A stretch of DNA of 28,067 bases from a virus. The position numbers were made by a program, and so were the translations under genes. The stretch is taken from positions 1-28,067 of IMG/VR virus record IMGVR_UViG_3300035698_025025. One strand, written 5' to 3'. Shown here piece after piece: positions 1 through 26,517 of the stretch. Under the pieces are notes generated by a model. It worked only from the letters and a program-made list of their open reading frames with translations, was not told the DNA's origin and did no database searches. Every line of letters begins with the position of its first letter. The first letter of the stretch is position 1.

Positions 1-1
1 C

Positions 2-433
2 ATAAACCATGGTAATCATGGGTTTAGAAGTGCAGCTTCGGCTAGTCTCAAAGCTTTAATGAGTAAATATATTCAAAAAGAAAATGTAAGAATCCCGTCT
101 ATTTGGTGGCCTCCTGAGACTAGGAGCCCTCTTATCTCTGATATTAAGCTTAAGAGTATTCTTGGTTCTAATGGTAATTATGAAATAGCCCCAATGCCTA
201 TGCTGGTTGGTAGCAATATTTCTGAATATAGTAGATATAGCTTAAATCTATGTAAGAGATTTAAGGATGCAGATAATGTCGATTTTTTAGCTCCTAATTT
301 GCAAAGATTCTCTATTGTCTTAAACTGGAGAATGTCTAAAGAGATTATGGAAATTCCAGAGCTATTTATGTCTGGAATTAAAATGTTTAATGATAGTGTT
401 TGTAATAAAATGATTGGTGATAGTGATGAGTGA
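2..433 (+). CDS. Protein of unknown function, 5' end outside the window
   Basis: The reading frame is open from base 2, so the ATG at 59 is probably internal and the gene most likely starts before the window. About 143 residues are visible. No family is recognised. The segment contains a Trp-Trp-Pro-Pro stretch near the visible start and is otherwise a mix of hydrophobic and polar residues with no membrane segment. Its last codons overlap the start of the E2-like gene by 8 bases, so it is translationally coupled to the ubiquitin-like cassette that follows and may belong to it. If the ATG at 59 is the true start, the product has 124 residues. That ATG sits in a TAATG context, but the TAA frame has a stop at base 3, which argues against an upstream gene ending there. 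Confidence 0.6.
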   Translation: MNHGNHGFRSAASASLKALMSKYIQKENVRIPSIWWPPETRSPLISDIKLKSILGSNGNYEIAPMPMLVGSNISEYSRYSLNLCKRFKDADNVDFLAPNLQRFSIVLNWRMSKEIMEIPELFMSGIKMFNDSVCNKMIGDSDE

Positions 434-1130
434 TAGTGAATTTAATTTTTCAGTTAGTGGTGATGGTTTAGTTAGTATTAAGGTTAATAATACTGATGGT
501 ACATCAAGTAATAAAGTAGTTAGATACGAAGATTTTGCAAGAATCTTTCTTATGGATAACCAAGATATTGATTTACCGTTATTCCCTAAGGGGATACGTA
601 AATATATTGTTCGAGGAGATAGGACTCTTGTTGCGATAGAATATCCTGAAACAAAATTTAGTACTGTTAATTGGGCAAGTGGTGATGAATATAAGGATAT
701 TCCTGTACCTCCTAGTTTATGGCTTACATTGTTACAGAATAATGCAGATGGTACATATAAGATTATTAAGAACAATTGTTTTGCGCTGGGGTTTACTGGC
801 TTTAGAGATTACGATTCTGTTTTATATAAATGGCCTTTCCCTAATCATTCCTTAACATATGGTACTGGTATATGTTGGGGTAATGATAGTAACTTTAAAA
901 ATATGAAGAATGACTGTCAGCTGACTGATTTACCTTCATTATTTAATATATATTTTTCTTCTCAATTTAATAATGATCTTGGTTATTATATTCAAAGAGG
1001 CGATGATGAGGCTGCTCATCATCATATTTTTCAGATCATATCTGGCTCTGATACATATTTAGAAAGATGGTTGATATCGGAAGAAGGCAATTTTGCCAGC
1101 TCTGTAAATAATTTAATAGGTGCGAGATAA
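426..1130 (+). CDS. E2-like ubiquitin-conjugating-fold protein, PRTRC system protein B type
   Basis: The 234-residue product resembles the prokaryotic E2 family D (PRTRC protein B). The key signature is at residues 137-151, reading PFPN, eight residues, then G-I-C-W. It parallels the HPN...G-x-C-L active-site region of E2 enzymes, so Cys150 is the expected thioester cysteine. A conserved-looking P-P-S-L-W segment (95-99) precedes it. Such proteins accept an activated ubiquitin-like modifier from an E1 partner. The ATG at 426 is preferred over a TTG at 414 because GGTGAT lies just upstream and the ATGA-style overlap matches neighbouring genes. A JAMM peptidase and a ThiF-like E1 follow directly. 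The family assignment is from memory of motifs; the function is inferred. Confidence 0.72.
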   Translation: MSDSEFNFSVSGDGLVSIKVNNTDGTSSNKVVRYEDFARIFLMDNQDIDLPLFPKGIRKYIVRGDRTLVAIEYPETKFSTVNWASGDEYKDIPVPPSLWLTLLQNNADGTYKIIKNNCFALGFTGFRDYDSVLYKWPFPNHSLTYGTGICWGNDSNFKNMKNDCQLTDLPSLFNIYFSSQFNNDLGYYIQRGDDEAAHHHIFQIISGSDTYLERWLISEEGNFASSVNNLIGAR

Positions 1131-1132
1131 CA

Positions 1133-2326
1133 ATGACTAATTATAGTAGAAAACCTCAAGTTCCAGCTGCATACACTAGACCTGTAGTTAAGACTGGTAC
1201 ATATGATACTGGTTTGGCTGATTTGCTTTTCGGATCGCGTGGTGAATGTAAAATAGAAGAGCTTGAATCTGATAAAGATTTCTGTATTGGGATATTTTCT
1301 GATGGTGCTTGGGAGTCTAGGAAGAATGATATTGGAACATTTTCTTATAAGAAGCACGATTTTGAAGTTCCATATTTGAAAGTTCCTGGTTATCACATGT
1401 TTGAAATGGCCTTGCCTCCCATCCCCTACGGGATGCTTATCGGTATTACTGATTTTTATAAGAAGATAATGGATAAGCTATCTAATGCTGAATCTATGGT
1501 TCAAGTATGGTGGAATAAGTCAGAAGAGAAATACCAATTATACGTTCCTAAACAAAAGGTTAGTGGTGCTTCAATTAGTTTTGAACATTCTCTTGTGCTT
1601 CAAAATAATGAAAATATGGTATGGGTATTAGATACTCATTCTCATAATACTATGAATGCGTTCTTCAGTGCTGGTGACAATGCAGATGAAAAGTCTACTA
1701 GAATCTTTGGTGTTATTGGGCAATTAAATAAACCTGATTGGGCATCTAAGTGGAGAGCGGGCTGTAATGGTCAATATTTAGATCTTGATATTGGTGATAT
1801 TTTTGACATGGAAAACCTTGAAGTTGTTATTATTCCTGATAGTGAAATAGATAAGGTAGAGAAGAACGTATATATTTCCCATACTCGCGTTAATAGTAAG
1901 TCTGTACAAGCTGGTCGTCGGCCTTATAGAGCACCTGTTGGCCATCCTTACTCTGGTGATCCTGGTTATGGCGATAATGCTTATGGTTACGGTGGTTATA
2001 ATGGGTATGGAAGCTCTATTAATGGTGGCAAAATGGACGAAGGAGGTTCTTACGTTGGTAATTATAACTTTCAATATATTTCATATGATCCTGAACTCGA
2101 TTCATTATTTTCAGATATCGAAGAGATTAATGACTGGGGTGGTAAAGGGCAGCTTGAAGACCATAATTTTATTACTGTTATTCGTACCATGGTAGATTAT
2201 ATTTGTTCATATAGTGAATTTAACAATAATACTGCCTCTGCTATGCTTGACCAGCTTAGTGTTAATATCACCAAAGAAGATTTTGATAAAATCATGAGGG
2301 CATATATGCCTGAGGAGTCAGTATAA
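1133..2326 (+). CDS. JAMM/JAB (Mov34/MPN) metallopeptidase, predicted deubiquitinase-like
   Basis: The 397-residue protein carries a complete JAMM zinc signature: His169-Ser-His171, seven residues, Ser179, two residues, Asp182. This is the H-x-H-x7-S-x2-D pattern of isopeptidases that release or process ubiquitin-like modifiers. An acidic residue upstream of the motif would complete the site. Around residues 262-308 there is a Gly/Tyr/Pro-rich, low-complexity linker with repeated GYG-type units. It separates the peptidase from a C-terminal acidic helical region (about 309-397) that I do not recognise. The gene sits between E2-like and E1-like genes, the arrangement seen in prokaryotic ubiquitin-like operons such as PRTRC. 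The predicted role is modifier maturation or deconjugation. Confidence 0.82.
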   Translation: MTNYSRKPQVPAAYTRPVVKTGTYDTGLADLLFGSRGECKIEELESDKDFCIGIFSDGAWESRKNDIGTFSYKKHDFEVPYLKVPGYHMFEMALPPIPYGMLIGITDFYKKIMDKLSNAESMVQVWWNKSEEKYQLYVPKQKVSGASISFEHSLVLQNNENMVWVLDTHSHNTMNAFFSAGDNADEKSTRIFGVIGQLNKPDWASKWRAGCNGQYLDLDIGDIFDMENLEVVIIPDSEIDKVEKNVYISHTRVNSKSVQAGRRPYRAPVGHPYSGDPGYGDNAYGYGGYNGYGSSINGGKMDEGGSYVGNYNFQYISYDPELDSLFSDIEEINDWGGKGQLEDHNFITVIRTMVDYICSYSEFNNNTASAMLDQLSVNITKEDFDKIMRAYMPEESV

Positions 2327-3390
2327 TGAATTTTATTAATGAAATGTATTCAAAAGTTAATGCAGTTATAGATAATTCTCTTGAGTATGGTCGGCTTAAG
2401 GGTAGGGATATTGATGTTCCTAATAATATTGTTGTATTGGGGGCTGGCGGAACTGCTAGCTGGTTTGCTCCAAAGTTATCTAAGATAATTAATGATGCTT
2501 TAGACAAGGGACTTTTACAATATGTTTCTCGTCGTCCTATTAATATCTGTTTTATTGATGGTGATTCTGTAGAAGAAAAGAATCTTATTCGTCAGAATTT
2601 TATTAGTCATGATATTACTAAGAATAAAGCAGAAGTTATTCATGGTAGATATGGTATGCAGCTTAATACAACTGTTAATAGTGGATATATTGATAAGTAT
2701 TTATCTAATAAAGAATATTCACCTATTAAGGCAGATGTGTCAGATAGGTTTGTTGATATTTCTGATTTGGGATTTTTTTCAAATATTAAACATAAAAATA
2801 TTTTATTTTTAAATCTTATTGATAATGCTGTTACTAGAAAGATTGTTCATCTTACTGCTAATGACTGTAGAATGGGTATTGTAATTGATGTTGCTAATAA
2901 TGAATATAATGGTCAGCTTACTACTTCTATATATCATTCTCGCGAAAGAAGTCTTACAGTAGATTTTGATATTATTAGTAGCTGGTTCTATAATGAATTA
3001 CCTGAACAGCTTGATTTAAAAGACAATGTGTCTGTATTCAGCTGTGCTGATGTAGATGCTGAATCTTCTGATCAGTTATTTAATGCTAATGATATGGCTG
3101 CTACTGTTCTCAGTAATTATCTTAATGACTGGATTGTTACTAATAGTGTAACATATGGAAGAGTTGATTTTGTTACTGGTTCGAATATGTCTATTACTAA
3201 TAGCAATAGATTTTATAATAAGAACCTAATGGATAACCTTGTAAAATTATCCAATACTGATATTCCAGAAAATGAGCGTTCTCCTCATGTAAAAGCAGCT
3301 ATTGAGATTGGATTAATATCTCCTGATAATTGCAGCAAGGATTTTCAGGTGTATTCTGAATACTCTACTAGGATAAAGGAAAGCATGTAA
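2326..3390 (+). CDS. ThiF/E1-like adenylating enzyme (PRTRC ThiF type)
   Basis: The 354-residue protein has the E1/ThiF/MoeB fold signatures in order. There is a nucleotide-binding G-A-G-G-T at 39-43. A second beta strand ends in D78-G-D80, followed by V-E-E-K-N-L-I-R-Q (82-90), the typical D-x-D-x-V-x-x-x-N-L-x-R-Q element. Lys101 is in the expected ATP-contact position, and L-I-D-N-A-V-T-R-K (164-172) matches the conserved D-N-x-x-x-R strand. Cys181 and Cys240 are candidate thioester or metal-binding cysteines. This enzyme would adenylate the C-terminus of a ubiquitin-like protein and pass it to the E2-like partner. The start overlaps the JAB stop (TAATG) with GAGGAG upstream. Confidence 0.82.
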   Translation: MNFINEMYSKVNAVIDNSLEYGRLKGRDIDVPNNIVVLGAGGTASWFAPKLSKIINDALDKGLLQYVSRRPINICFIDGDSVEEKNLIRQNFISHDITKNKAEVIHGRYGMQLNTTVNSGYIDKYLSNKEYSPIKADVSDRFVDISDLGFFSNIKHKNILFLNLIDNAVTRKIVHLTANDCRMGIVIDVANNEYNGQLTTSIYHSRERSLTVDFDIISSWFYNELPEQLDLKDNVSVFSCADVDAESSDQLFNANDMAATVLSNYLNDWIVTNSVTYGRVDFVTGSNMSITNSNRFYNKNLMDNLVKLSNTDIPENERSPHVKAAIEIGLISPDNCSKDFQVYSEYSTRIKESM

Positions 3391-4988
3391 TGAAGCAGCT
3401 TGGATCTTATCAAACTAAAGAGATCCTTGGTGATCTTATATCTATTAGTAAGAAATTCGAACAGATATATGGGATTATTAGGTCAACTATTAGTTGTACG
3501 AATCATGAACTTGGTCAAAATTCTGTTGGCATCTTATCTACATTCCCTGAAAAATATAGCGATGAGATCTCTTCTTTTATTGAGAGTTATGAATTTGGCT
3601 TAAGTCAAATTGGCCATATTAATGGTCACAGCATACCAAAGTTAGCATATCTTATGTCTGTTGATTATAATTATCAGACTGCGGGTCCTGATCTGCGTCC
3701 TCTTCATGGCCTTGATAATGAACGTAGCTTGTTACCATCCGATTCTGTTATAACTAGCGAATTTTATAATCCTGGCAGTGTTATGTATTCACAGGTGAAG
3801 GATCCAGATAATACTTATTCTCTTGAGAAAATTGATTCTGATGTTATGATTGGCGAAATTATTGGTAGCATTAACAAGCATATTGGCATTCTTGGGAAGT
3901 ATTCTAATAGTGTAATCTTTAGGCATCGCAGTATTGATGGGAGAAAAATTTCTTTAATTAATCCAAAGCTTTCTCCTGATGTCATTAATCAGATAGAGTC
4001 TTCTTTCAAGAATATATCTAGAATATTTTATAATCTAAATAATGATTTATTCCTTAGTCAAGATGGTGTTAGAGATCATGTTGTTGGCTTTATAAAGAAT
4101 AAGAGCTATATAGATCATGCTAAGGCGCATCTTGGTTGCAAAAGCGCTATATCTGTGGACATAAGTAAATTTTACAACAGTATTTCTCTTGTTAATATGA
4201 TTGATAATAATTTATTTTATAATTCTATGAAGACTTGGTTCAAGTATAAAACTGGAGATGAGTTTATGCCTAGTAAGTTTAAGGATCCTTATAATCATAA
4301 TACGGTTGATAGATTGCTTGGACTCATGAATGTTCAGTTTATTGGTATTATGAATTTCTTAACACATAATGGCCAGTTACCTACCGGTGCTAGCTATTCT
4401 CCTGATATATCTAATCTATTACTGGCTACAGTTGATAGTGATATTACAGAAAATATTAAATCTCTTCCACATGACCTTAAGTATACTAGATATGCGGATG
4501 ACATTTGTATATCCAGTAATGTGGCTAAGAACGATGATGGCAGCTATGTTCTTAATATCGAAAATGTCCGTGATCTTGAAAAGATAGTTAAGGATAGTGG
4601 GTTTTATTTGAATTACGATAAAACAAAAATAATGGGTCCAAGGGATAGAAAGAAGATAGCTGGACTAATTCTTGACCATACCTCATCTCCTCCTAGATTA
4701 TCTATTGGTTCCAAGAAGAAGCTGGAGCTTAAAGAAAAATATCAAGGATTAAATTATAGAAATCTAAACGATTCAGACCGTGGAGTTCTTAACTGGGTTA
4801 ATAGTATTAACCCAAAACAATATGAGTTTATTTGTGCTGGTATTAGTAATGCTCCTGGTGCTAATATTGCAATAACTGGCTCTGGTTCTACTAGAGAGGC
4901 TGTTGTTTATTCAGATCCATTTGATTGGTTTGAAGTGGGTTTAACTATGCCAGATGAATGGCATGTTAATGCTGAACCAGTATTTTGA
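3390..4988 (+). CDS. Retron-type reverse transcriptase
   Basis: The 532-residue protein shows ordered reverse-transcriptase blocks. Residues H243-A-K-A-H247 stand where retron enzymes have NAxxH. V-D257-I-S-K-F-Y-N-S is motif A, L330-P-T-G-A-S-Y-S-P motif B, and R-Y368-A-D-D371 motif C. K-T-K-I (about 410) and I423-A-G-L, a variant of the retron VTG motif, follow. All three catalytic aspartates are present. The first ~190 residues and the last ~90 match nothing I recognise. Motif B is of the xxG-x-x-x-S-P type, unlike the SQ type of diversity-generating retroelements. The gene overlaps the E1 stop by one base (TAATG), with AAGGA upstream, so it is translationally tied to the conjugation cassette. 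No adjacent msr/msd-like RNA is apparent. Confidence 0.88.
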   Translation: MKQLGSYQTKEILGDLISISKKFEQIYGIIRSTISCTNHELGQNSVGILSTFPEKYSDEISSFIESYEFGLSQIGHINGHSIPKLAYLMSVDYNYQTAGPDLRPLHGLDNERSLLPSDSVITSEFYNPGSVMYSQVKDPDNTYSLEKIDSDVMIGEIIGSINKHIGILGKYSNSVIFRHRSIDGRKISLINPKLSPDVINQIESSFKNISRIFYNLNNDLFLSQDGVRDHVVGFIKNKSYIDHAKAHLGCKSAISVDISKFYNSISLVNMIDNNLFYNSMKTWFKYKTGDEFMPSKFKDPYNHNTVDRLLGLMNVQFIGIMNFLTHNGQLPTGASYSPDISNLLLATVDSDITENIKSLPHDLKYTRYADDICISSNVAKNDDGSYVLNIENVRDLEKIVKDSGFYLNYDKTKIMGPRDRKKIAGLILDHTSSPPRLSIGSKKKLELKEKYQGLNYRNLNDSDRGVLNWVNSINPKQYEFICAGISNAPGANIAITGSGSTREAVVYSDPFDWFEVGLTMPDEWHVNAEPVF

Positions 4989-5003: not shown

Positions 5004-5789
5004 ATGTTAAATATAATCGGTCATGATCTAAGTGCCGTAGATAAGGATAATATTAAGAAGATTTTTTCTTATACTCCATTATCTAAAAATAAACAAATGA
5101 TAATCGATCTAAAATATGTTGACTTTGAAATTGATGATTATAATACGATTTTTGCCATTGGTAAAGTTGCTACGCGATTAATAGTTAGAGAGTTAGTTAA
5201 GGGTGGGAAAATAAGCCAGAGTGTTTTCGTTGGAAATGATTTATATAATCAAGATGCTGGTTTCATGTTTGTAAATGTTGGTCTTGAAGTCGTAGATATT
5301 ATGACATCTCAAGAAAACAAGGATTTTATGTGGGATAAGGTATCCAATGCTGTTGATCTTTATCTTAAGATTAATCCCGATGATATTACTGCTGGTGAAA
5401 ATGAAGTAGTCAAAGAAACTATTGTAATAGATTCTGCTGTAGTGGATGATGCTTGGCCAGATACTGGCCTTCCTAAATCTAATGCTCCTGCTGTAATCCA
5501 GCCTATTGGTGATAATGTTACCTATCAAGTGGGCGATATATTAGATAAGCTTTATGAGCATGTCTCTTTGTCTGACCCTAGTCTTGGAAAGATGTTATCT
5601 AAGTATGAGAAGTTTACTCTTCATACTACTAGTGGGGATTTAAATATATATCCTACAACTAGAATGCCTGATAGTGATGAAGATCCTTCGATAACATTTA
5701 AGGACCTTGTTGTGCTTCTCAAGTATTTTACTATAATGAATGCAGAGCATGTAACCCTGAAGAAGAAAGATGGAAACATTACTGATTAA
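5004..5789 (+). CDS. Protein of unknown function, possible UDG-like fold in N-terminal half
   Basis: The 261-residue protein follows the reverse transcriptase after 15 bases, with AAAGGT as ribosome binding site. Residues 40-120 run D-D-Y-N-T-I-F-A-I-G-K-V-A-T-R-L and later F-M-W-D-K-V, which loosely resembles the second half of uracil-DNA glycosylase-like domains (strand, then G-K/R-x-A). No catalytic motifs of that family are visible, so the resemblance is weak. A proline- and acid-rich stretch (about 140-175) links to a C-terminal alpha/beta region. The C-terminus does not end in Gly-Gly, so it gives no sign of being a ubiquitin-like modifier. Its position suggests it may belong to the same transcription unit as the conjugation cassette. 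Confidence 0.6.
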   Translation: MLNIIGHDLSAVDKDNIKKIFSYTPLSKNKQMIIDLKYVDFEIDDYNTIFAIGKVATRLIVRELVKGGKISQSVFVGNDLYNQDAGFMFVNVGLEVVDIMTSQENKDFMWDKVSNAVDLYLKINPDDITAGENEVVKETIVIDSAVVDDAWPDTGLPKSNAPAVIQPIGDNVTYQVGDILDKLYEHVSLSDPSLGKMLSKYEKFTLHTTSGDLNIYPTTRMPDSDEDPSITFKDLVVLLKYFTIMNAEHVTLKKKDGNITD

Positions 5790-6039
5790 GTTCTTTAAGA
5801 ATTTCATGACTACTATAATAATTTATTATTCTAGAAAATTAGTGTTTTATATTGATTTTCTATTACAGTCGTCTTTTGATGATTCTACTGTTGTGTGTCA
5901 TAGATGTGGTGAAGAATTTAGAATAAAAATAATTGAACAATTGTCATTAGATAATTGTTTATCATGTGGGGAACCTTTTAAGGATTCCTACGAAAAAAAT
6001 GTGCAAGATGTCGAGGTGATTAATGACAGGAATGATTGA
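5770..6039 (+). CDS. Small zinc-ribbon protein
   Basis: The 89-residue product has two CxxC knuckles (V-C-H-R-C-G and N-C-L-S-C-G, around residues 42-66), spaced as in a zinc ribbon. The N-terminal ~30 residues are strongly hydrophobic and aromatic and could be a membrane-associated helix. An internal ATG at 5806 would remove part of it. The start at 5770 overlaps the preceding gene by 20 bases and has a purine-rich GAAGAAGAAAG upstream. Function is unknown. Next to an E1/E2/JAB cassette a zinc-binding partner is noteworthy, but a single ribbon is not evidence of an E3 ligase. Confidence 0.6.
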   Translation: METLLIKFFKNFMTTIIIYYSRKLVFYIDFLLQSSFDDSTVVCHRCGEEFRIKIIEQLSLDNCLSCGEPFKDSYEKNVQDVEVINDRND

Positions 6040-8575: not shown

Positions 8576-9606
8576 TAAGCAAAGACAAAGAAAGAGCTAT
8601 AAAAGTAGCTCTTTCAACTCTTAAGAAAAAATATGGTGATGACTGCTTTATAGATGCAGATAATATATCTAACCTACCTTCTATATCCACAGGGTCTTTA
8701 CTTCTGAATGAGTGTATTGGTATTGGTGGCCTACCAGAAGGCAGGGTAGTTGAAATATACGGCGGTGAATCCAGCGGTAAGACCACATTGATTACATTAA
8801 TTGGTGCAGAAGCACAAAAGAAGTATCCTGAATCATATATAGGTATTGTTGACATAGAGCATGCTTTTAATCCTGCATATGCATCTGAACTTGGGCTTAA
8901 CGTTGATGACTTATTATTTACTCAACCAGATAGTGCGGAAGAAGCACTAGATACTATGCTGTCTTTGATTAATAGTGGTGCATGTTCTGTGGTTGTGCTT
9001 GATTCTGTTGGCGGTTTGCAAACTAAGCAACAGCTTGAGAAAGGTATTGGAGAAGCTACTATGTCTGAAGTGGCAAGAATTCTTAGCCAGACTTTGCCTA
9101 AAATTGTTAAAGCAGCTAAGCATACTGATACATTGGTTATATTTATTAATCAAATTAGAGCCACTATGTCTATGTATGGCAAACCTGAAACTACAATGGG
9201 TGGAAATGCATTGAAGTTCTTTAGCTCTGTTAGGCTTGAGATGAAAAAGACTGAAGTAATGCTTAGTGGCACTGAGCCTGTTGGGCAAAGAGTTAAGATT
9301 AAAGTTGTTAAGAATAAGGTTGGTCCACCATTTGGTGTTGTTGAGGCTGATCTATACTTTGGGCGTGGTTTTGATCAATCTATTGAAATTGTAGATATTG
9401 CTATTAAGAGGGAAATAATAAGGCAGGGCGGTGCTTGGTATTATCTGGAAGATGAGACCAAATTCCAAGGCAAGACTAATCTGATTGAATATATTAATAG
9501 TAATGATGAATTATTCGAAAGCCTGAAAAGTAGAATATTTGGTGAAGATGATGAAAAAGCTGAAGTTATCAGTGGAACTAGTTCCGAAGATGAGCTGATC
9601 GGGTAA
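8572..9606 (+). CDS. recA: RecA recombinase
   Basis: The 344-residue protein is a full-length RecA homologue. Walker A is G-G-E-S-S-G-K-T-T (64-72) and Walker B is V-V-V-L-D144-S-V. D-I-E96-H-A-F-N-P carries the catalytic glutamate, and N-Q-I-R with P-E-T-T-M-G-G-N-A-L-K-F-F gives the L2 DNA-binding loop region. It lacks a long acidic tail but ends in an acidic, Ser-rich stretch. It catalyses ATP-dependent strand exchange, supporting recombination-dependent phage replication and repair. Neighbouring RuvC and Cas4-like genes fit the same pathway. The start overlaps the previous stop by four bases. Confidence 0.95.
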   Translation: MISKDKERAIKVALSTLKKKYGDDCFIDADNISNLPSISTGSLLLNECIGIGGLPEGRVVEIYGGESSGKTTLITLIGAEAQKKYPESYIGIVDIEHAFNPAYASELGLNVDDLLFTQPDSAEEALDTMLSLINSGACSVVVLDSVGGLQTKQQLEKGIGEATMSEVARILSQTLPKIVKAAKHTDTLVIFINQIRATMSMYGKPETTMGGNALKFFSSVRLEMKKTEVMLSGTEPVGQRVKIKVVKNKVGPPFGVVEADLYFGRGFDQSIEIVDIAIKREIIRQGGAWYYLEDETKFQGKTNLIEYINSNDELFESLKSRIFGEDDEKAEVISGTSSEDELIG

Positions 9607-9619
9607 CTTAAGGAAGTTT

Positions 9620-10033
9620 CTGAGTAGTGAAGAGTGGGACATGGTTAGACTTGATACATATCATAAAGCTGGAAACATCTGCCAGATATGTGGGGACAAT
9701 GGAATTTCTCAGGGGTTAAACCATGCAGTGGAATGTTATGAAGAATGGAAATATGTTTATCCAAACTATAGAAATTCTTATCTTAGACCAACACAAATCT
9801 TAAAGGAGCTAGTATGCCTTTGCCCAAGATGCCACGAAGTAAAGCATATTGGCCTTGCAAGAGTCAGGGGCCGTGGTAGAGAAGCTATGGAACATTTCAT
9901 GTTTATTAATAATCTTAGTAAGCATGTATCAAATATTGAAATCGGTCTAGCCTTTAAGGTGTGGAACGTTAGGAATAATGTTCAGTGGGATGTTTCCTGT
10001 GGACTTATTGAAAAAAATTTGGATTTAAGGTAA
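9620..10033 (+). CDS. HNH-type nuclease domain protein, likely CTG start
   Basis: The protein contains C-x2-C (I-C-Q-I-C-G), then N-H-A-V-E-C-Y-E-E-W, and C-P-R-C-H-E-V-K-H with A-R-V-R-G-R. This is the arrangement of a widespread free-standing HNH family in phages and bacteria. The first ATG is at 9641, but the frame upstream encodes S-S-E-E-W-D, which fits the conserved beginning of the family. The only plausible start giving it is CTG at 9620, with AAGGA five bases before it. The ATG at 9641 also has a modest GAAGAG six bases upstream, so 130 residues is the conservative length. It could be a homing or DNA-processing nuclease. It lies 13 bases after recA. Confidence 0.75.
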   Translation: MSSEEWDMVRLDTYHKAGNICQICGDNGISQGLNHAVECYEEWKYVYPNYRNSYLRPTQILKELVCLCPRCHEVKHIGLARVRGRGREAMEHFMFINNLSKHVSNIEIGLAFKVWNVRNNVQWDVSCGLIEKNLDLR

Positions 10034-11847: not shown

Positions 11848-11944
11848 TAATGATATTAATATGCTAAAGGCCCTAGAGGATGCATGGAATGATAATCGGG
11901 ATGGTTTTGATATTAAATGTGATACTCTCGGTGATCCAAAATGA
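11831..11944 (+). CDS. Possible small protein linking RNA-ligase stub to dnaE
   Basis: A 37-codon frame (ATG 11831, alternative ATG 11837) overlaps the end of the ligase stub and ends in ATGA at the dnaE start. A GAGG lies about 10 bases upstream. It is acidic and has no known family. The coupled overlaps favour real translation, but a frame this short could occur by chance. Confidence 0.35.
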   Translation: MLMGIDNDINMLKALEDAWNDNRDGFDIKCDTLGDPK

Positions 11945-13260
11945 CTGAAACATACACTGGACTGCATCAGCATAGTGTTTATTCCGTTCTTGATGGCTTT
12001 GCAAAAGTAGAAGACATGGTTGTGCGAGCCAAAGAGCTAGGCATGAATGGCGTTTGTATTTCTGATCATGGGACTATGGCATCGGCTTTCGAATTGAATA
12101 AGCAATGCAAGAAGCATGGCATGAAGCCAATCTTTGCCAATGAGATGTATATGGCCCCTACCAGTAATCTTGTTAAGGAAAGACTAGAAGGTTATAAGCC
12201 ATCTTATCATCTAATAGTGATAGCTAAGAATGATATTGGATACAAGAACTTAATGCGCCTTACTAGTGATAGCTGGGTTAATGGTAAATATTATAAACCA
12301 AGAACTTCTATGTCTAAGTTGTCAGAGCATAGAGAAGGCTTAATTATTCTTGCTGCTTGTATTGGTGGTATGTCTCAGCAACTCTTCCTGGAGGGAAGGG
12401 TTGAGGAGGCTGAAGATCATATACTTGAAATGCAACAAATATTTGGTAGTGACTACTATCTAGAGGTTCAATATACTGGACTCAAAGAACAAGAGCTTGT
12501 TAATGACTTCTATTTTGAAATGGGAGAGAAACATGGTTTTGAGATTGTTGTTACTGCAGATTCTCATTATGTAGAGAAAACTGATTCCAAGTATCACAAT
12601 GCCCTAGTAGCTATCAACACTGGTGGAAAAATTATTGGCGAGAAGAAAGCAAATCTTACTGATGAAGATATAGATCAAGATGAATCTGGTATGTATTACA
12701 CTCCCGGTGAATATTTTATGAAATCTCATGATGACCTGGTTGATACTGGTCAGTTTGTAGATTGCATGGAGGCATTCGCTCTAAGTAATAGTATTGCTGA
12801 ACAGTGTAATGTTGAATTTATTACTGGTCAGAAATATATCCCCATAATAGAGGGTGTTAATGATGAAGATGCTGAACTTAAAATGGTTTGCGAAAATGGA
12901 CTTAGATCTTTTCTAGCGGAGCAAGATAGAGTACCAATGAGTGATGAATTAGTCTCTGAATATTGGGATAGACTATATTATGAACTTGAAATTATTGCCA
13001 AAATGGAGTTTTCTAGATACTTCTTGGTGGTCTCTGAGTATGTACAATGGTCAAAAGATAATGGTATAATGGTCGGTGGTGGTCGTGGCTCTGCTGCAGG
13101 TTCATTGGTTGCTTATACAAGTAAGATAACTAATGTAGACCCCATAAGATATGATCTACTATTTGAAAGATTCCTTTCAAGAGGTAGAGCTAAGCGTCCA
13201 CAAGTAGATTGCCCAAATTATACCTATGAAGAATATTCGAACGATAAGGAGAATGCCTAA
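11941..13260 (+). CDS. dnaE: DNA polymerase III alpha subunit, N-terminal half (PHP and start of palm)
   Basis: The 439-residue protein matches the first ~400 residues of DnaE. The PHP domain has H9-Q-H11-S-V-Y-S-V-L-D-G, S-D-H-G and T-A-D-S-H-Y metal-site elements. The beginning of the C-family palm contains G-G-G-R-G-S-A-A-G-S-L-V-A-Y and D-L-L-F-E-R-F-L. It then diverges (R-P-Q-V-D, then ~16 unrelated residues) and stops, exactly where intact enzymes continue into the catalytic P-D-x-D-x-D-F loop. The missing part is encoded at 18006-20486. Neither half alone holds a complete active site, so function requires association of the two chains. The stop overlaps the next ATG. Confidence 0.92.
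   Translation: MTETYTGLHQHSVYSVLDGFAKVEDMVVRAKELGMNGVCISDHGTMASAFELNKQCKKHGMKPIFANEMYMAPTSNLVKERLEGYKPSYHLIVIAKNDIGYKNLMRLTSDSWVNGKYYKPRTSMSKLSEHREGLIILAACIGGMSQQLFLEGRVEEAEDHILEMQQIFGSDYYLEVQYTGLKEQELVNDFYFEMGEKHGFEIVVTADSHYVEKTDSKYHNALVAINTGGKIIGEKKANLTDEDIDQDESGMYYTPGEYFMKSHDDLVDTGQFVDCMEAFALSNSIAEQCNVEFITGQKYIPIIEGVNDEDAELKMVCENGLRSFLAEQDRVPMSDELVSEYWDRLYYELEIIAKMEFSRYFLVVSEYVQWSKDNGIMVGGGRGSAAGSLVAYTSKITNVDPIRYDLLFERFLSRGRAKRPQVDCPNYTYEEYSNDKENA
13246..13251 (+). promoter_or_regulatory. Strong ribosome binding site AAGGAG for the small Cys-ended protein
   Basis: AAGGAG lies eight bases before the ATG at 13260, inside the end of the dnaE N-terminal half. It is one of the best matches to the anti-Shine-Dalgarno sequence in the window, suggesting the small protein is made at a higher level than its neighbours. 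Confidence 0.6.
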
Positions 13261-13495: not shown

Positions 13496-14026
13496 ATGAT
13501 TAATGCAAAATATTTAGGTTCGGTGTGTGGTGATAATCTACATGCAACAATGGATGAGCTAGTTGCTTATCTTAGTGATGATAAAAATATTGTTATCACT
13601 AGTACTGAATTTCAAGCTACTGCCTTATACTTTAGACATCAATTGGTAACCTATGATATCTATGTTAAGTATCAAGCCTTAATCTATTCTATTAGAACTG
13701 CTCTTGCTCAGGTTGATGGACTTACTCTTGAAGAGAGGGTCAGATGTCATTACCTATCTGCAATACTTGCTATTCCAATTATTAGTGGCGAATCATATAT
13801 GGTTTATCAAAAGATTAGAGTTGATATCAATAGATATGCTGATGGCTATAAGAAATTTTCTGAACAATATCAAATAGTTAGAGACTTATGTTCTGGCCAT
13901 CCTGGTCTTAGTATTATAAGTATGCCATTTAATAGAATGATTACAGAGATGCACTCTGTATTAGAGTTTGCTGCCGATACTGATAAATCTAACGATTTAG
14001 ATATTATTGATTTTGGTCTTAGCTGA
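13496..14026 (+). CDS. Protein of unknown function in the radical SAM island
   Basis: The 176-residue product is largely helical, with a central hydrophobic stretch (Y-L-S-A-I-L-A-I-P-I-I-S-G). I recognise no family and see no precursor-binding (RRE) winged-helix signature. It starts nine bases after the small Cys-ended protein without a clear ribosome binding site, so it may rely on coupling. It ends two bases before the radical SAM start. Its fixed position between candidate substrate and maturase suggests a partner role. Confidence 0.6.
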   Translation: MINAKYLGSVCGDNLHATMDELVAYLSDDKNIVITSTEFQATALYFRHQLVTYDIYVKYQALIYSIRTALAQVDGLTLEERVRCHYLSAILAIPIISGESYMVYQKIRVDINRYADGYKKFSEQYQIVRDLCSGHPGLSIISMPFNRMITEMHSVLEFAADTDKSNDLDIIDFGLS

Positions 14027-14027
14027 T

Positions 14028-15065
14028 ATGACTAAACAAGAAATCTGGGCTAGATGGGAGTCTCATAAGAAACACATGGTGCTTACTCTTACACGTAGTT
14101 GTAATCTTAGATGTTCTTATTGTTATGAATTTAATGACGATGGTGCTTCCATACTTGTTGATAGAGGTGTATCAGAGATGTCTATATGTACTGCTATTAG
14201 TTCTATTAGAGACATAAAACCTGATATGGTTAGGTTTTATGGTGGTGAGCCATTGCTTAGGGCCGATGTTATTATGGCTGTTATGGATGAATTTCCTCAA
14301 CTTGATTTTGGTATTAATACTAACGGGATGCTTCACAGAAAACTCCCTGACGAGTATTGGGCAAGGATGCTTCATGTAGAGCTATCAATAGATGGCATAG
14401 ATGATACTACAAGAACTGAAAATCTTGATAAATATTATAAGGCTGTAGATGCTATCAGGGAGAAGGTTCCAATACAGGAAGGTATAACATGCTCTGTTAC
14501 ATTATCAGATTCATATTCTGATTATACTATATTTAATAGAATTCGAGATATCTACAATAGATTTAATATTAATGTGTTCCAAGTTGGTATAGCTACAAAT
14601 CAACAAATACATAGGTCTATTGTCATGAATGATAGTGTTTTTATTAAAAAGTATGCTGGTGAGATGATTGAAGCTTACGTTAATTCAGCGGCTTCTAATC
14701 TTCCACTTATAATAAAGGGTCGTGACCAGTTATCTGCTAATATAAATGGCAATACAGAGTGCAGTAGTTTGTCTGGTCAGTATGCTGCAGTTGATGTTGA
14801 TGGAACCATTGGCACATGCCATGTTGCATTGGGTAATAATATTGATTTGTCTAATCACAATCTTGATAATACTACTTTTGCTTGCCCATACGTTAAAGAG
14901 ACTAATCCAGAATTGGCAATTGCCCTTACTGAGAATGCTGAGTTATTAACCTTCTGCACTCTTCTTGAGACTATTAATTTTGAAATGTATATGACTGAAA
15001 ATGAGTTAGATAAGCAATCTTTTATACAGATGATTAATCATCATCTTGATAATCAAAATGCCTAA
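14028..15065 (+). CDS. Radical SAM enzyme, SPASM-like peptide/protein maturase
   Basis: The 345-residue protein has the radical SAM C25-N-L-R-C29-S-Y-C32 motif, which binds a 4Fe-4S cluster for S-adenosylmethionine cleavage. F-Y-G-G-E-P (70-75) contacts the methionine amino group. Additional cysteines at 245, 264, 286 and 310 in the C-terminal third, with V-D-V-D-G-T-I-G-T-C-H, resemble a SPASM/twitch auxiliary-cluster domain, as in RiPP maturases and anaerobic sulfatase activators. The likely substrate is a peptide or protein. ATG 14028 is used because the preceding stop lies at 14024-14026. It overlaps the next gene by eight bases. Confidence 0.85.
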   Translation: MTKQEIWARWESHKKHMVLTLTRSCNLRCSYCYEFNDDGASILVDRGVSEMSICTAISSIRDIKPDMVRFYGGEPLLRADVIMAVMDEFPQLDFGINTNGMLHRKLPDEYWARMLHVELSIDGIDDTTRTENLDKYYKAVDAIREKVPIQEGITCSVTLSDSYSDYTIFNRIRDIYNRFNINVFQVGIATNQQIHRSIVMNDSVFIKKYAGEMIEAYVNSAASNLPLIIKGRDQLSANINGNTECSSLSGQYAAVDVDGTIGTCHVALGNNIDLSNHNLDNTTFACPYVKETNPELAIALTENAELLTFCTLLETINFEMYMTENELDKQSFIQMINHHLDNQNA

Positions 15066-15528
15066 ACATGTCTATAAATACAAAAACAATAATTATATTA
15101 TAAACGAGTTCGAATTTTCTGATGCAGAAGTACAGCATCTTTTTAATTCAATGGTTAGTAATCCGGATCATTACAATGTTATTAATCCAGACTCGCCATT
15201 AGAACTTGCTAAATCACTAGCCTCTAGTGGTTATGAAATTAAATCTATATATTCCAATGAAGCATTAGTTGCTATTGTAATAATAGAACACGATCCCTCT
15301 AGTTACCCTTGCGTATCGCTTCATTTTATTAATAAGAAAGAATATAGAATATCAATGATATTGACAGACTATATTATGCGTATGAATATTAATTATTCTA
15401 CATATGTATTCTTTACTAAAAATATCTTGATTGCTAAGTATGTAGTAAAAAAATTAGGTGGTTATATAAAAAGCTTTGAGGACAATGAGTATGAAGTCAT
15501 TGTCCCTTATGGAGAAAAATGTGGATGA
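15058..15528 (+). CDS. Protein of unknown function, weak GNAT-like pattern
   Basis: The 156-residue protein shows an alternating helix/strand order, with L-V-A-I-V-I-I-E-H followed by a C-V-S-L-H-F-I strand and a late K-Y-V-V-K-K-L-G-G helix. This order is reminiscent of GNAT acyltransferases, but the acetyl-CoA-binding Q/R-x-x-G-x-G/A loop is not seen. The assignment is therefore tentative. It lies between two radical SAM genes with eight-base overlaps on both sides, implying a shared operon. Confidence 0.55.
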   Translation: MPKHVYKYKNNNYIINEFEFSDAEVQHLFNSMVSNPDHYNVINPDSPLELAKSLASSGYEIKSIYSNEALVAIVIIEHDPSSYPCVSLHFINKKEYRISMILTDYIMRMNINYSTYVFFTKNILIAKYVVKKLGGYIKSFEDNEYEVIVPYGEKCG

Positions 15529-17941
15529 AATATTTGTATCTATTGATACTATTTTAAATAAAGAACTTGTCGTTGATAATAAGTATAAATACAAGGACTT
15601 GACTCTTATTAACATGATCATGACAAGAAAGTGTAATTTTGATTGCACCTACTGTAGTCCTGCTGGTACAAAAATAAAAATGCATGATTTTTCCAGTAAA
15701 AATATTGAAGACATAGTTGTTGGAGATATTATTCTTGGATACAATGAAGAATCTGATGGCAGTAATGGGAGAAAATTGGAACCAACAGTTGTTACGGAAA
15801 TTAAAAATCATGAAGCTGATAATGTTCGTGCCCTGAATATAGATAATGAAATCTTAAATTTAACTGCTGAAGATCCTATTCTTTATAAATCTCATGGTAG
15901 GAATAATCATAGATGGGGTAAGGTTGAAAACCTTAAATCTGGATATAAAGTATTGAAATTGAATGTAGATGATTTTGAGCCCAATAATGATATAGATGAA
16001 GACTATATCATTGGATATATAGTTTCTGCAATGTTAGGAGATGGACATTTTTCTAAGCGTAAAGATAAGAATGGGCATGATGCATATAAGTTTAGATTTG
16101 TAGTCAAGGATCAGGATGTTAATGATAGGTTTGAAGTATTCATGGATCATTTAGGCTTTGATTTTAATAAATATCCATACAAAATATCTAGCAAGCATAA
16201 TACATATCGTGATGCTATTAATAGTGGGGAAAAAGATACCTATTATAAATTCATGGATTTAGTGAGTGAAAATTTTAGAGTAAATAAATCTTTAAATTAT
16301 TTTAGGGGATTTTTATCTGGTATTTATGATACTGAAGGAAGTATAGATGAGAAATCGAAAATTATAAGAATATTTAATTCAGATAATAATATAATAAGTG
16401 AGTTAACTGAAGGATTGAGTATACTTGATATTGCACACACTTTTGATAAAGAAAAGAAAACTAAAAATAAGCATGTTAAAGTTGTTAGATTATTAAATTC
16501 TCCTATTAATAATTCTATAAAATTTATATCTTTGATTAATCCTGCTTGTTATAGAAAAGGATATAGTAATTTTTATGATTATAATATTTTTAAAGATGTG
16601 GAAATCAGCGATATCGAAAAGGTAGAAGGTATTCATACTGTATACTCTCTTTCTACAGAATCTAAAACTTACATTGCTAATAATGTTGCAGTTCACAACT
16701 GTCCAGAGGATAAAGATCAGAAGAACATCGGTGATTGGACTCCTGAACTATTTCGGTCTTTACTTCAATTCTGTGATAAAGAATCGCAAAGGAATGTTGT
16801 TACAATCTCGTTTTTTGGTGGAGAACCATTATTGAAATGGAAGTTAATAAAGAAACTTCTTATTGAGTGTGAGGATGACTTAGTTAATTCAAAAGTCACT
16901 TTCAATATCAATATATCAACCAATGCATACCTTATGGATGAATCTGTTCAACAATGGATGACTGAATGGGGCGATAGAACTGGTGTTATCGTAGGGTTCC
17001 TTCTGTCTGTTGATACATTCCTCGAAGACAATACTCAGCGCATACAAAAGAAGTCTAGGCTTCCTGGCCTTGATGTTATTGTTGCTAATCTTGATTTAAT
17101 GAAAGAGTCTTATCCTAGACTAATGAAGAATTCTACTTTTAGAATTTCTCTAATGCATGATCTGGTATATCGTGTCTATGAAGATATGAAAATCATGGTT
17201 GGGTATAATCCATTCAGTGTTATTGTACATCCTATCACTACACATGACAAAGACGAAGACAAGTGGTCTCCCGAGCTTTGGGACGAGTTTGAAAAAGCAG
17301 TCAATGATATCGCTATGTATTCTTTAATGAATAGTAATGTTGCTATCGAGTGTATGGAAGGCGTGTCTGATAAGGGTGGTAACTGTGGTGCAGGATCTTG
17401 GATGTTAGGTGCTGATTCTTCCGGTGATCTTTATTCATGCTACTTTACTGCACATGATGGTGATAAGACTGATGCTGTAGCCAGCTATGTTAATGGTGAT
17501 CATTATGAACAGGGTCATAGATATATAGACATTGTATATGATTCTAAGTGTGATACGTGTAATACTGAGTATTGTCATCAGTGTCATATTAAAAATGTTA
17601 TTCATACAGGTGATTACTTCTGTCCGGCCTCTTGGTGTGTAGAGATCGCTACGATGTATAAAAACACTAAGCACTTGTGTGATCTTACTTCCGTTAATGC
17701 ATGGCATAGTCCAGATACTGGTTTATCCATGAAGTCTTTTCATGAAAGCATAATGTGTTATACAAATAGTATAGCTGGATTTTTACAAGGCGCTATAGCT
17801 GGTGAGCATTTTACACCGGAAGAGCATTGTGGTTGTGAGATAACTGAAGGTTCTATTACTGAGGCTATGGAAATATTGGCTAATATGGACTTGCTTAAGA
17901 TAACTTCTGAGAAGATTATGCTGAATAGTATGGTTAAGTAA
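15521..17941 (+). CDS. Radical SAM/SPASM-like enzyme precursor interrupted by an intein
   Basis: The precursor of 806 residues would splice to 457. The radical SAM motif begins C38-N-F-D-C42-T-Y, then the intein; the third cysteine is restored by the first C-extein residue (C-P-E-D). I-S-F-F-G-G-E-P follows. A cysteine-rich C-terminal region has C-G-A-G-S-W and Y-S-C-Y-F, then C-D-T-C-N-T-E-Y-C-H-Q-C and F-C-P-A-S-W-C. It resembles a SPASM domain with auxiliary clusters. It probably modifies a peptide or protein, perhaps the product of 13260-13487. GTG 15521 is favoured because GGAG lies six bases upstream and it overlaps the previous stop in the usual way; ATGs at 15485, 15491 and 15509 lie deeper in that gene. 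A terminator follows. Confidence 0.85.
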   Translation: MDEIFVSIDTILNKELVVDNKYKYKDLTLINMIMTRKCNFDCTYCSPAGTKIKMHDFSSKNIEDIVVGDIILGYNEESDGSNGRKLEPTVVTEIKNHEADNVRALNIDNEILNLTAEDPILYKSHGRNNHRWGKVENLKSGYKVLKLNVDDFEPNNDIDEDYIIGYIVSAMLGDGHFSKRKDKNGHDAYKFRFVVKDQDVNDRFEVFMDHLGFDFNKYPYKISSKHNTYRDAINSGEKDTYYKFMDLVSENFRVNKSLNYFRGFLSGIYDTEGSIDEKSKIIRIFNSDNNIISELTEGLSILDIAHTFDKEKKTKNKHVKVVRLLNSPINNSIKFISLINPACYRKGYSNFYDYNIFKDVEISDIEKVEGIHTVYSLSTESKTYIANNVAVHNCPEDKDQKNIGDWTPELFRSLLQFCDKESQRNVVTISFFGGEPLLKWKLIKKLLIECEDDLVNSKVTFNINISTNAYLMDESVQQWMTEWGDRTGVIVGFLLSVDTFLEDNTQRIQKKSRLPGLDVIVANLDLMKESYPRLMKNSTFRISLMHDLVYRVYEDMKIMVGYNPFSVIVHPITTHDKDEDKWSPELWDEFEKAVNDIAMYSLMNSNVAIECMEGVSDKGGNCGAGSWMLGADSSGDLYSCYFTAHDGDKTDAVASYVNGDHYEQGHRYIDIVYDSKCDTCNTEYCHQCHIKNVIHTGDYFCPASWCVEIATMYKNTKHLCDLTSVNAWHSPDTGLSMKSFHESIMCYTNSIAGFLQGAIAGEHFTPEEHCGCEITEGSITEAMEILANMDLLKITSEKIMLNSMVK
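15653..16699 (+). mobile_element. LAGLIDADG intein inserted in the radical SAM iron-sulfur motif
   Basis: The element encodes 349 residues. Cys1 opens block A (C-S-P-A-G-T-K-I-K-M, then I-E-D-I-V-V-G-D). Two LAGLIDADG motifs follow: Y-I-V-S-A-M-L-G-D130-G and F-L-S-G-I-Y-D-T-E228-G. Block F (V-Y-S-L-S-T-E-S-K-T-Y-I-A-N-N) and block G (V-A-V-H-N, then Cys+1) end it. The splicing residues Cys1, His348, Asn349 and Cys+1 are present. Block B reads T71-A-E-D74, with Asp where His is usual. Both endonuclease acidic residues remain, so homing activity is plausible. Correct splicing would rebuild the C-x3-C-x2-C motif exactly. Confidence 0.92.
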
Positions 17942-17965: not shown

Positions 17966-17991
17966 AATAAGCCCCTTGATTGGGGCTTATT
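17966..17991 (+). terminator. Intrinsic terminator after the radical SAM island
   Basis: A perfect 10-base-pair stem (AATAAGCCCC / GGGGCTTATT) with a six-base TTGATT loop sits 25 bases after the radical SAM stop. A T-rich end overlaps the stem foot. An A-rich stretch lies upstream, so it could also work in the opposite direction. It lies between the two dnaE halves. Confidence 0.85.
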
Positions 17992-18005
17992 TGTCTGAGG
18001 TATAT

Positions 18006-20486
18006 ATGAGTTTAAGAATATTAGTAGAGGAACGTGTATCTTCTGATAGATATATTGGTCGTGAGGCTAATATTCGCTTTGAATTGAACCATCTTGAGTT
18101 GCATGATCTTGATGATTATCTATTTACTTGCTTTACAAAAGGCATAAAAGATGAATCTAATCTTACTAATAGTAATATTAAATATCTTCTAGGCATGACT
18201 GATACTATATCTGATGGTGCTGTTCACACTAAGGGTGGCAACTGGCCTGATATAGACATTGACTTTCAACATGATGTCAGGGATAAGGTTAAGGGCCATC
18301 TTAAGGATGTTTATGGTGAAGAATGTGTTGCCTCTATAGGTACGGTTACATTTGCCAAAGCCAAAGGCGTTTTTAAGGATGTTGCTAGGATATATGGTCT
18401 TCCTTTCCAGAAGTCGAATGATATATCTAAGCTATTTCCAGAGATGTGTGAGTCTATAGATGAAGCCATAAGTGGATCTCCTGACCTACGAGCTGTTATA
18501 TCTACTGATCCTGAAGTAGAAGAGGTGTTTGAGTATGCAAAGGCACTAGAGGGTACTGTGAGGGCTATAGGTGTACATGCTGCTGGTGTTGTTGTATCAC
18601 CTATACCTGTTACCGATATAGTTCCTCTTTTTGAATCAAAAGGTGAAGCTGTAACAATGTTCGATGGACCTACTCTTGAAGAGATAGGTCTTATTAAATA
18701 TGACATCCTAGGGCTTAAGGCTCTTACTGTCATATCTAGAACCATAGATATGATTAAGGATAGATCTGGTGTCGTTATTGATATAGACAAGATACCAGAA
18801 GATAGTTCGGAAGCATATGAGATAATAAGTTCTGGCAATACTCTTGGAATTTTTCAACTTGAAGGTTCTAAAGCTTTAAGAGATTTTGCTGCATCATGTG
18901 AACCTAAGAGTATAGGTGATATAGGTGCAATTATTTCTCTATATAGGCCTGGCCCAATAGGTCTTGGTGCGCTTGATGAATATGTATATAGAAAGACAGG
19001 TAAAATAGAAGCTGTTTTTGATATACCTGAATTTAATTATATATTTGAAGATACATATGGTTTATTAATATATCAAGAGCAGTTAATGAGACTGTCTGGT
19101 GATATGTGTGGATTCGACGATATAGAAAGGGATGTTTTAAGAAAGGCTACGGCCAAGAAGGATGCTGAATTGTTGGCATCGCTTAAGGAGAATTTCGTTG
19201 AGGGTGCTGTTAAAAAATCAGGACAAGATAGACAAAGGGTGTCAGAACTCTTTGATAGGATGGAAGCTTTTAGTAGGTACAGTTTTAACAAGTCTCATGC
19301 TATTGCCTATTCTTACATTACTTATCAGACAGCATGGTTAAAAGCACTTTATCCGTCTGAATATATGGCTTCATCTATATCGTGCGAGCCCGAATCCGAT
19401 CAGCAATCTATATACATGTCTGATGCTAGAAGGAATGGTGTTGAGGTTCTTCCACCTGATATTAATCACTCTAGCAGGGACTTTGTTGTTGGTGAATCTG
19501 GTGAGATATTATTTGGGTTTAGCTCAATTAAAGGACTTGGTTCTGCTGCTATAGATAAGTTGCTTAATCTAAAACCTCATACTAGTTTTGGAGATTTTTT
19601 AATAAAGTCATTTCATGCTAAGGGTGTTAATAAAAAAGTTATAGATGCTTTGATATGTTCTGGGTCTTGTGATGCATTTGGATTTAAAAGATCATGCCTA
19701 TTAGCTGGTTTTGAAAGATTCCTTATGGATTATGCCAATGAAGCTGAAGAGGAATATTCATCTGAGTTAGCTAGAAAGTTCTGTAGGCTTGAAGATAAGT
19801 ATTTTGATAATCCTAATATACAAGAATTTCCCATGCTTAAGATTCTTGAGATGGAGAATATGCTATTGGGTGTACATATATCCGGTAACCCTTTTGATTT
19901 TGCCAGAGCACTTGTGTCTGAAAATCATAGGTCAATCGATTACCTAAATGGTGTAGATGGTGGTTCTCATTATGCTCTTGTACAAATAGATAAGGTTAAG
20001 CAAATAACTACCAAGAAAGGTGATCCGATGGCATTTATAGATGTCACGGATAAAGATGGTAGTAGTACGAACATGGTTATATTCCCCAATGTTTTCAATA
20101 AGTTACAGAAGACATTGGTAGAGAACAAGTATGTACTCATCTTCCTTAATGTTAAGCTAGATAGCAGGGGAAGAGGTTTCCTTGTTGTTAACATTCAAGA
20201 TCTTACATCTGAGCTTGATTCAGTATCAGATAAAGCTGAAGCTGAAAAGAATATGAAAAAAATAGATCTTATTATAAGCAATGTTAGTCCTGTAAGGATT
20301 CGTTCAATAATGAATAAGATTAATGATTATAAAATGGATAAAGATACAGGATACTCTGCGTCTCTTCTTGTAGATATTGGAGATGCTATGTTTAATATAG
20401 CCACATTTGATATACGTAAGATAGATATTGCAATGCTAAGATCATTTAGTAAGGTTGCGGGGTTGACTGTCAAAAGAGGGGTTTAA
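18006..20486 (+). CDS. dnaE: DNA polymerase III alpha subunit, C-terminal half (catalytic palm, fingers, OB)
   Basis: The 826-residue chain begins with about 80 residues not recognisable as DnaE, then enters the catalytic palm at W-P-D82-I-D84-I-D86-F. The third catalytic aspartate is D233 in I-K-Y-D-I-L-G-L. Fingers follow (E-A-F-S-R-Y-S-F-N-K-S-H-A), then a helix-hairpin-helix-like region and a C-terminal OB fold (A-L-V-Q-I-D-K-V-K-Q-I-T-T-K-K-G). The PHP domain and the G-R-G-S-A-A-G-S loop are supplied by the gene at 11941-13260. ATG 18006 has GAGG nearby; an upstream TTG at 17976 falls inside the terminator loop. The unusual N-terminal 80 residues may mediate assembly of the halves. Confidence 0.92.
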   Translation: MSLRILVEERVSSDRYIGREANIRFELNHLELHDLDDYLFTCFTKGIKDESNLTNSNIKYLLGMTDTISDGAVHTKGGNWPDIDIDFQHDVRDKVKGHLKDVYGEECVASIGTVTFAKAKGVFKDVARIYGLPFQKSNDISKLFPEMCESIDEAISGSPDLRAVISTDPEVEEVFEYAKALEGTVRAIGVHAAGVVVSPIPVTDIVPLFESKGEAVTMFDGPTLEEIGLIKYDILGLKALTVISRTIDMIKDRSGVVIDIDKIPEDSSEAYEIISSGNTLGIFQLEGSKALRDFAASCEPKSIGDIGAIISLYRPGPIGLGALDEYVYRKTGKIEAVFDIPEFNYIFEDTYGLLIYQEQLMRLSGDMCGFDDIERDVLRKATAKKDAELLASLKENFVEGAVKKSGQDRQRVSELFDRMEAFSRYSFNKSHAIAYSYITYQTAWLKALYPSEYMASSISCEPESDQQSIYMSDARRNGVEVLPPDINHSSRDFVVGESGEILFGFSSIKGLGSAAIDKLLNLKPHTSFGDFLIKSFHAKGVNKKVIDALICSGSCDAFGFKRSCLLAGFERFLMDYANEAEEEYSSELARKFCRLEDKYFDNPNIQEFPMLKILEMENMLLGVHISGNPFDFARALVSENHRSIDYLNGVDGGSHYALVQIDKVKQITTKKGDPMAFIDVTDKDGSSTNMVIFPNVFNKLQKTLVENKYVLIFLNVKLDSRGRGFLVVNIQDLTSELDSVSDKAEAEKNMKKIDLIISNVSPVRIRSIMNKINDYKMDKDTGYSASLLVDIGDAMFNIATFDIRKIDIAMLRSFSKVAGLTVKRGV

Positions 20487-26393: not shown

Positions 26394-26394
26394 G

Positions 26395-26468
26395 GTCTGA
26401 TAAAAACAGACTTGGCACTCTAGTTCTAGAAATTTTCATTTAAGAATCTTCTTTTCTTAAATTGAAAA
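26395..26468 (+). other. Two hairpins after the endonuclease gene
   Basis: First, GTCTG (26395-26399) pairs with CAGAC (26407-26411) around an A-rich loop. Second, TTTTCATTTAAGAA (26433-26446) pairs with 26454-26468 with a single bulge, giving about 14 base pairs. An 11-A run with five T follows (26474-26489). There is no classical T tract directly after the second stem on the + strand, so termination is uncertain. Confidence 0.45.
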
Positions 26469-26509
26469 ACCTTAAAAAAAAAAATTTTTATTATACTGAA
26501 TGTATTATT

Positions 26510-26517
26510 TATAAATA
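26510..26517 (+). promoter_or_regulatory. TATAAATA, possible T4-late-type promoter element
   Basis: The octamer equals the T4 late promoter consensus and lies just upstream of the structured RNA candidate. A TATACT (26492-26497) is a second possible -10. The region is very AT-rich, so either may be chance. No convincing -35 box is seen. Confidence 0.2.

Follow-up and report, generated by a model that had tools for sequence, protein, structure and literature searches.

We describe here a row of genes in a viral DNA fragment of 28,067 bp (IMG/VR record IMGVR_UViG_3300035698_025025; this whole stretch is called the window below), in which an E2-like protein, a JAB/JAMM peptidase and an E1/ThiF-like adenylating enzyme are encoded next to a retron-type reverse transcriptase (RT). 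From the sequences, we tentatively favor reading this row as a phage operon that joins PRTRC-like ubiquitin conjugation to a retron-type RT, with both halves serving one pathway. Taken separately, the conjugation genes and the RT are of known kinds, and the new part is the recurring link to an RT. This pairing recurs in a number of large phages that are unrelated to one another, a pattern suggestive of a viral pathway not yet described. In the open-access literature, we found no paper describing the pairing of such a cassette with an RT; nor is it described by Iyer et al. 2006 (PMC1779556), whose text never mentions "reverse transcriptase".

Judged by their family matches, the conjugation genes of the window belong to a PRTRC-like set of ubiquitin-like (Ub-like) protein, E2, JAB and E1, which is a known kind, here without ParB. 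Searches of Pfam matched RVT_1 (E = 2e-15), ThiF (1.3e-5) and Prok-JAB (1.1e-4), with Prok-E2_D matched at just 0.08. The assignment of the window E2 is firm solely because its relatives match Prok-E2_D: 25 of 35 E2 homologues did so, the best at 2.6e-29, and the window E2 aligns with these in the family profile. In alignments of 61 E2, 78 E1 and 72 JAB proteins, the catalytic cysteines corresponding to window E2 Cys150 and window E1 Cys240 were invariant (61/61 and 78/78, respectively), and the JAMM residues were conserved at 94% (E120), 94% (H169), 96% (H171), 99% (S179) and 100% (D182). Together with the complete JAMM motif and YADD box of the window proteins, these findings uphold the intact active sites noted in a preliminary description of this DNA. 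The predicted model of the window E2 reached a pLDDT (predicted local distance difference test) of 85, and we attach a reservation to its predicted fold, since neither a fold search with the model nor a profile search of PDB sequences matched any PDB entry.

Scans using the E1 and JAB alignments yielded more than 80 viral contigs of large phages with the cassette (labeled L with a number below), mostly in the order E2-JAB-E1. Relatives keep a fixed order of a Ub-like gene, a gene of about 300 aa (usually 260-350 aa), E2, JAB and E1. The upstream Ub-like gene, often present, is single or repeated in tandem 2-6 times (two copies in L019, four in KLEB27-3, five in L077 and six in L066), most units ending in TGTKG, and the KLEB27-3 protein matches Prok_Ub at 5e-27 and PRTRC_C at 8.8e-17. 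Since the window contig begins inside the gene before E2, its own Ub-like gene presumably lies beyond the contig end, and the fragment at 1..433 presumably occupies the place of the 260-350-aa gene of the relatives.

Several further features of these cassettes were observed along the way. Polyubiquitin-like phage genes with 3-6 repeats lie in L066 (2331-3410), L077 (3598-4704), L004 (1676-2425) and L005 (3391-4182), their units mostly ending in TGTKG or GVKG, and a strongly folded gap just 5' of the Ub-like gene in L078 (4265-4645; z -9.7) ranks second among 117 gaps. The JAB gene is interrupted in L002 (phage ME3; 3730-6840), L011, L012, L041 and L057, as is E1 in L011 and L012; in ME3 the break falls exactly at the JAMM His codons and endonuclease-like open reading frames lie inside it, which likely reflects insertion of an intron or homing element at codons of the active site. 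In Salmonella phage Arash (L006, 1519-4539), the E2-like gp248c and E1-like gp246c were deposited as "structural protein", which may mean that they were detected in virions.

RVT_1 was present in 31 of 89 other cassette records, a redundant set, and RT and E1 shared a strand in 24 of 25 RT-bearing cassette records. Where the RT lies close downstream of E1 on the same strand, the gap is 0 nt in the window, an overlap in L055, and 283, 343, 534, 828 and 972 nt in L035, L031, L078, L069 and L133, respectively. An RT is found within about 1 kb 3' of E1 at five separate places on the E1 tree (the window; L055; L035; L031 with L078; L069 with L133). Assuming 12 lineages and an RT placed at random across 150 kb, we arrive at a rough chance of about 3e-10 that at least five lineages would have the RT on the E1 strand and no more than 1 kb downstream. 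L031 and L078 have the complete set of Ub-like gene, E2, JAB, E1 and RT. In the Arash-like group, the RT is on the E1 strand about 3.9-12 kb downstream of E1, and in L076 and L197 it is upstream of E1. For Arash-type RTs, the cassette was found in every contig that extends far enough upstream, the exceptions beginning within about 2.3 kb of the RT. Among cultured phages, retron-type RTs are uncommon: an L019 RT query matched 44 of 50,697 records, and of those 44, SA1 is the only large lytic phage without a sign of bacterial DNA. The preliminary description proposed that conjugation cassette and RT are coupled, and the relatives give a mixed picture that on balance favors this: E2-JAB-E1 is often kept without the RT, but the RT, where present, is not randomly placed. 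The RT is not an obligatory partner of the cassette.

A number of observations weigh against a shared pathway. The cassette often occurs without an RT (Arash, ME3, KLEB27-3 and Vibrio D69), no RT adjoins the cassette in the nearest E1 relatives of the window (ME3, L011 and L012), and the presence of an RT among cassette phages is patchy. In the Arash-like group, which is a single clade, the RT is cut off from E1 by oppositely oriented (leftward) structural genes and is tied to f26, a small conserved gene that overlaps the start of Arash-type RTs (L019 14376-14867 and homologues), so the two do not form one operon there. The YADD box is replaced by YGDN in the L055 RT (8981-9823) and by YVDN in the L035 RT (9006-9791), which means that activity may differ, and the window has no gap above 15 nt around its RT, leaving no intergenic room for an adjacent retron RNA. 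UvsX-bearing viral contigs, taken up as a base-rate comparison, were mostly short fragments and were set aside. The cassette RTs fall at several places on the RT tree, but a single origin was not rejected (approximately unbiased test, p-AU 0.26).

The main rival is that two independent accessory modules, the RT perhaps being a phage-borne defense or superinfection-exclusion gene, have repeatedly settled in the same variable region with no biochemical link, which we regard as credible if somewhat unlikely. The patchy RT fits such a history, as does its location anywhere from 0 to 12 kb downstream of E1, or upstream of it. The gene f26 is kept without an RT in Arash itself, and in RT-less Arash-like phages the RT slot after f26 is filled by f30, which encodes about 300 aa. 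Moreover, at least 10 Arash-type contigs (L275-L278, L282-L284, L288, L294, L300, L301) start within about 2.3 kb 5' of the RT, which is what a hypervariable region would produce; this pattern suggests that the sequence upstream of Arash-type RTs is hypervariable or breaks assemblies. On the other hand, independent settling does not readily account for five lineages with differing neighbors in which the RT lies within about 1 kb downstream of E1 on the same strand, for the overlap of E1 and RT in both the window and L055, or for the cassette being found at none of the 80 retron-type RT loci from bacteria. A separate candidate for a lost RT, ME3_128 (549 aa, two genes after E1 in ME3), was set aside because it has no RVT_1 match.

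Less probable, and in our view unlikely, is that the RT is an enzyme of phage DNA metabolism, which copies or repairs the nucleic acid of the phage together with partners resembling single-stranded DNA-binding protein (SSB), and that the cassette lies nearby through a common early gene block. The genes downstream in the window, which include a RuvC-like resolvase, UvsX, DNA polymerase III alpha, a primase-helicase and a ligase, are in keeping with such a role, and so are the SpoVG-like proteins encoded after the RT in L031, L078, L069 and L133 and the Whirly protein after the RT in L055. Against it, the Arash-like cassette and RT adjoin structural rather than replication genes, and RT-less relatives evidently manage. 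The SpoVG-like genes right after the RT in L031 (9929-10270) and L078 (10131-10457) encode acidic tails, DDIPF or DDLPF, that are similar to those of SSB.

The RT that we tentatively place in a joint pathway with conjugation was best matched by retron RT models (2e-31 for PADLOC and 6e-31 for St85 in NCBIfam), at scores below the curated cut-off of the named retron models. Most of its core (about 200-480) was confidently predicted by AlphaFold, with low confidence for the first ~190 residues, and the solved structures nearest to the predicted fold are the retron RTs Eco2, Eco7 and Ec86. Motif 4 reads TGASYSP and QGALTSPKISN; in RTs of diversity-generating retroelements (DGRs), this motif is known in SQ form. 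TGASYSP and YADD fit a retron-type rather than a DGR RT. We rejected a chance landing of a DGR or group II intron RT as highly improbable: although phages do carry RTs of these kinds and a match to RVT_1 cannot by itself separate the types, motif 4 is not in SQ form, the retron model scores 6e-31 vs 5e-7 for the group II intron model, the predicted fold is nearest to retron RTs, and no group II intron RNA rises above the Rfam threshold in the window.

In the window, Rfam gave no match for an msr-msd RNA beside the RT. Strongly folded non-coding gaps lie directly 5' of the RT in L035 (8724-9005; z about -12), L197 (z -7.7) and L076, ranking first, eighth and third, respectively, among the 117 gaps, and the L035 gap has a 15-bp perfect inverted repeat adjoining the RT start. 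The corresponding gaps of L069 and L133 also fold well and were not counted; the L069 gap holds a tRNA-like sequence. Two other leads were dropped: a fold at 5787-5921 of the window (z -4.3 alone) ranks just 13th of 698 windows, and the DNA conservation upstream of the RT in group A, considered as a retron RNA, is coding sequence (f26, overlapping the RT start). The sole large non-coding gap of the window, at 26394-26897 and 21 kb from the RT, is folded far beyond shuffles (z -7.4) and contains a perfect hairpin of 19 bp (26742-26813) flanked on either side by identical 26-nt repeats (at 26691 and 26862). It matched neither an Rfam family nor a tRNA and is a candidate for a new structured RNA.

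From the protein families and conserved residues, we infer how a joint pathway might run. JAB would trim a Gly-ending Ub-like precursor, which relatives encode just upstream as a single protein or a tandem polyprotein, and E1 would adenylate the freed Gly and hold it as a thioester on Cys240, from which Cys150 of E2 would take the modifier over and attach it to a target. The RT, for its part, would copy a structured phage RNA into short cDNA. In favor of one pathway we count, besides the recurrent placement near E1, the conserved catalytic residues, the folded gaps before the RT in L035, L197 and L076, and the nucleic-acid-binding proteins (SpoVG-like in L031, L078, L069 and L133; Whirly in L055) encoded after the RT. 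The weakest and most speculative step is the last, in which conjugation could be triggered by, or directed at, the RT-cDNA particle or some protein bound to that particle, with tagging perhaps switching or relocating it during infection. It is conceivable, though on the doubtful side, that large phages have more than once put together a pathway in which reverse transcription works jointly with ubiquitin-like conjugation, tagging of RT-cDNA particles being one example.

Ubiquitin-like conjugation in bacteria is known chiefly as antiviral defense, and retron-type RTs likewise. The phages described here own the whole Ub/E2/JAB/E1 set, including polyubiquitin-like precursors. If the pairing is functional, it would represent a phage pathway linking protein tagging with cDNA synthesis, and would open a way to study the as yet unexplained RTs found in large lytic phages, as well as what PRTRC-like conjugation acts on.

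The preliminary description related the E2/JAB/E1 group to PRTRC and CBASS-like (cyclic oligonucleotide-based antiphage signaling system) contexts. Its kinship with PRTRC is supported by NCBIfam matches: the window JAB resembles PRTRC_A (1.3e-13), the window E1 resembles PRTRC_ThiF (1.7e-13), the Ub-like proteins of relatives match PRTRC_C as noted for KLEB27-3, and the E2 proteins of relatives match PRTRC_B weakly (1.1e-3). However, the window scores fall under the curated cut-offs (51.0 vs 101.8 bits for PRTRC_A; 50.5 vs 144.75 bits for PRTRC_ThiF), ParB_N was matched in none of 25 records searched, some of which are fragments, and the cassette here has an added RT. Since no ParB was found in these records and the scores lie below cut-off, we call the cassette PRTRC-like and not a PRTRC system. 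The CBASS-like link found no such backing, as no CD-NTase family was matched among the ten window proteins scanned. Type II CBASS (Cap2, an E1-E2 protein, and Cap3, a JAB) has E1, E2 and JAB chemistry in common with the window, but E1 and E2 are separate genes here, and the E1-E2 models of PADLOC match the window E1 at just 0.006. No PADLOC model matched the window E2 or JAB.

A Ub-like protein, sometimes in tandem, is also combined with E2, JAB and E1 in bacterial polyubiquitin operons and in BilABCD (PMC11354881). Two adenylation domains are reported for BilD, and the E2 of polyubiquitin operons is described as inactive (PMC11354881). By these descriptions, the window appears to differ from BilABCD in that its E1 is a single 354-aa protein with one ThiF match and its E2 has the motif PFPN..C vs a CEHH motif; it differs from polyubiquitin operons in that the E2 Cys is conserved. 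Retrons are resembled in RT sequence, in predicted fold and in the folded RNA upstream of the RT in L035, L197 and L076, but the window RT has an N-terminal extension and lacks an adjacent RNA gap and a recognized effector. To our knowledge, E2-JAB-E1 is not a known retron effector type. Staphylococcus jumbo phages carry an RT of unknown role (PMC10638138). SA1, a large lytic phage, is similar in that its RT is long, and on the tree this RT falls in a loose group with that of the window, each at the end of a long branch; a search for an E1 cassette in SA1 found none.

The coordinates of the row, 426-4988, and the succession of E2, JAB, E1 and RT with 1-nt overlaps or a 2-nt gap were confirmed (Table 1). 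E2 and JAB are separated by 2 nt, and the JAB-E1 and E1-RT junctions each overlap by 1 nt (TAATG). The genes had also been called translationally fused, which is incorrect, as they merely overlap and nothing is fused. The stop-start overlap had further been taken as a sign of one functional unit. Since the fragment is about 97% coding, with nearly all genes on the + strand, and overlaps of similar size are common throughout it, the overlap by itself is no evidence for a single functional unit. When viral contigs were scanned with single RT and polymerase sequences, no near relative of the window phage turned up.

Table 1. Genes at the start of the window, with the residues discussed in the text.
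Feature	Position	Strand	Remarks
Truncated gene 5' of E2	1..433	+	3' end only; contig start cuts the gene; first in-frame ATG at 59
E2 (UBC)-like, 234 aa	426..1130	+	Cys150 (codon 873-875) in PFPN..GICWG
JAB/JAMM peptidase, 397 aa	1133..2326	+	E120, H169-x-H171, S179, D182; resembles PRTRC_A
E1/ThiF-like adenylating enzyme, 354 aa	2326..3390	+	Catalytic Cys240 (codon 3043-3045); resembles PRTRC_ThiF
Retron-type RT, 532 aa	3390..4988	+	Core ~190-485; YADD codons 368-371 (4491-4502); N-terminal extension ~190 aa
Gene after RT, 261 aa	5004..5789	+	No family match

Elsewhere in the window, two separate genes (11941-13260 and 17976-20486) encode the halves of a split DNA polymerase III alpha, with the break at about profile position 442-446 of phrog_405, and the 4.7 kb between the halves hold two radical-SAM genes (14007-15065 and 15476-17941).

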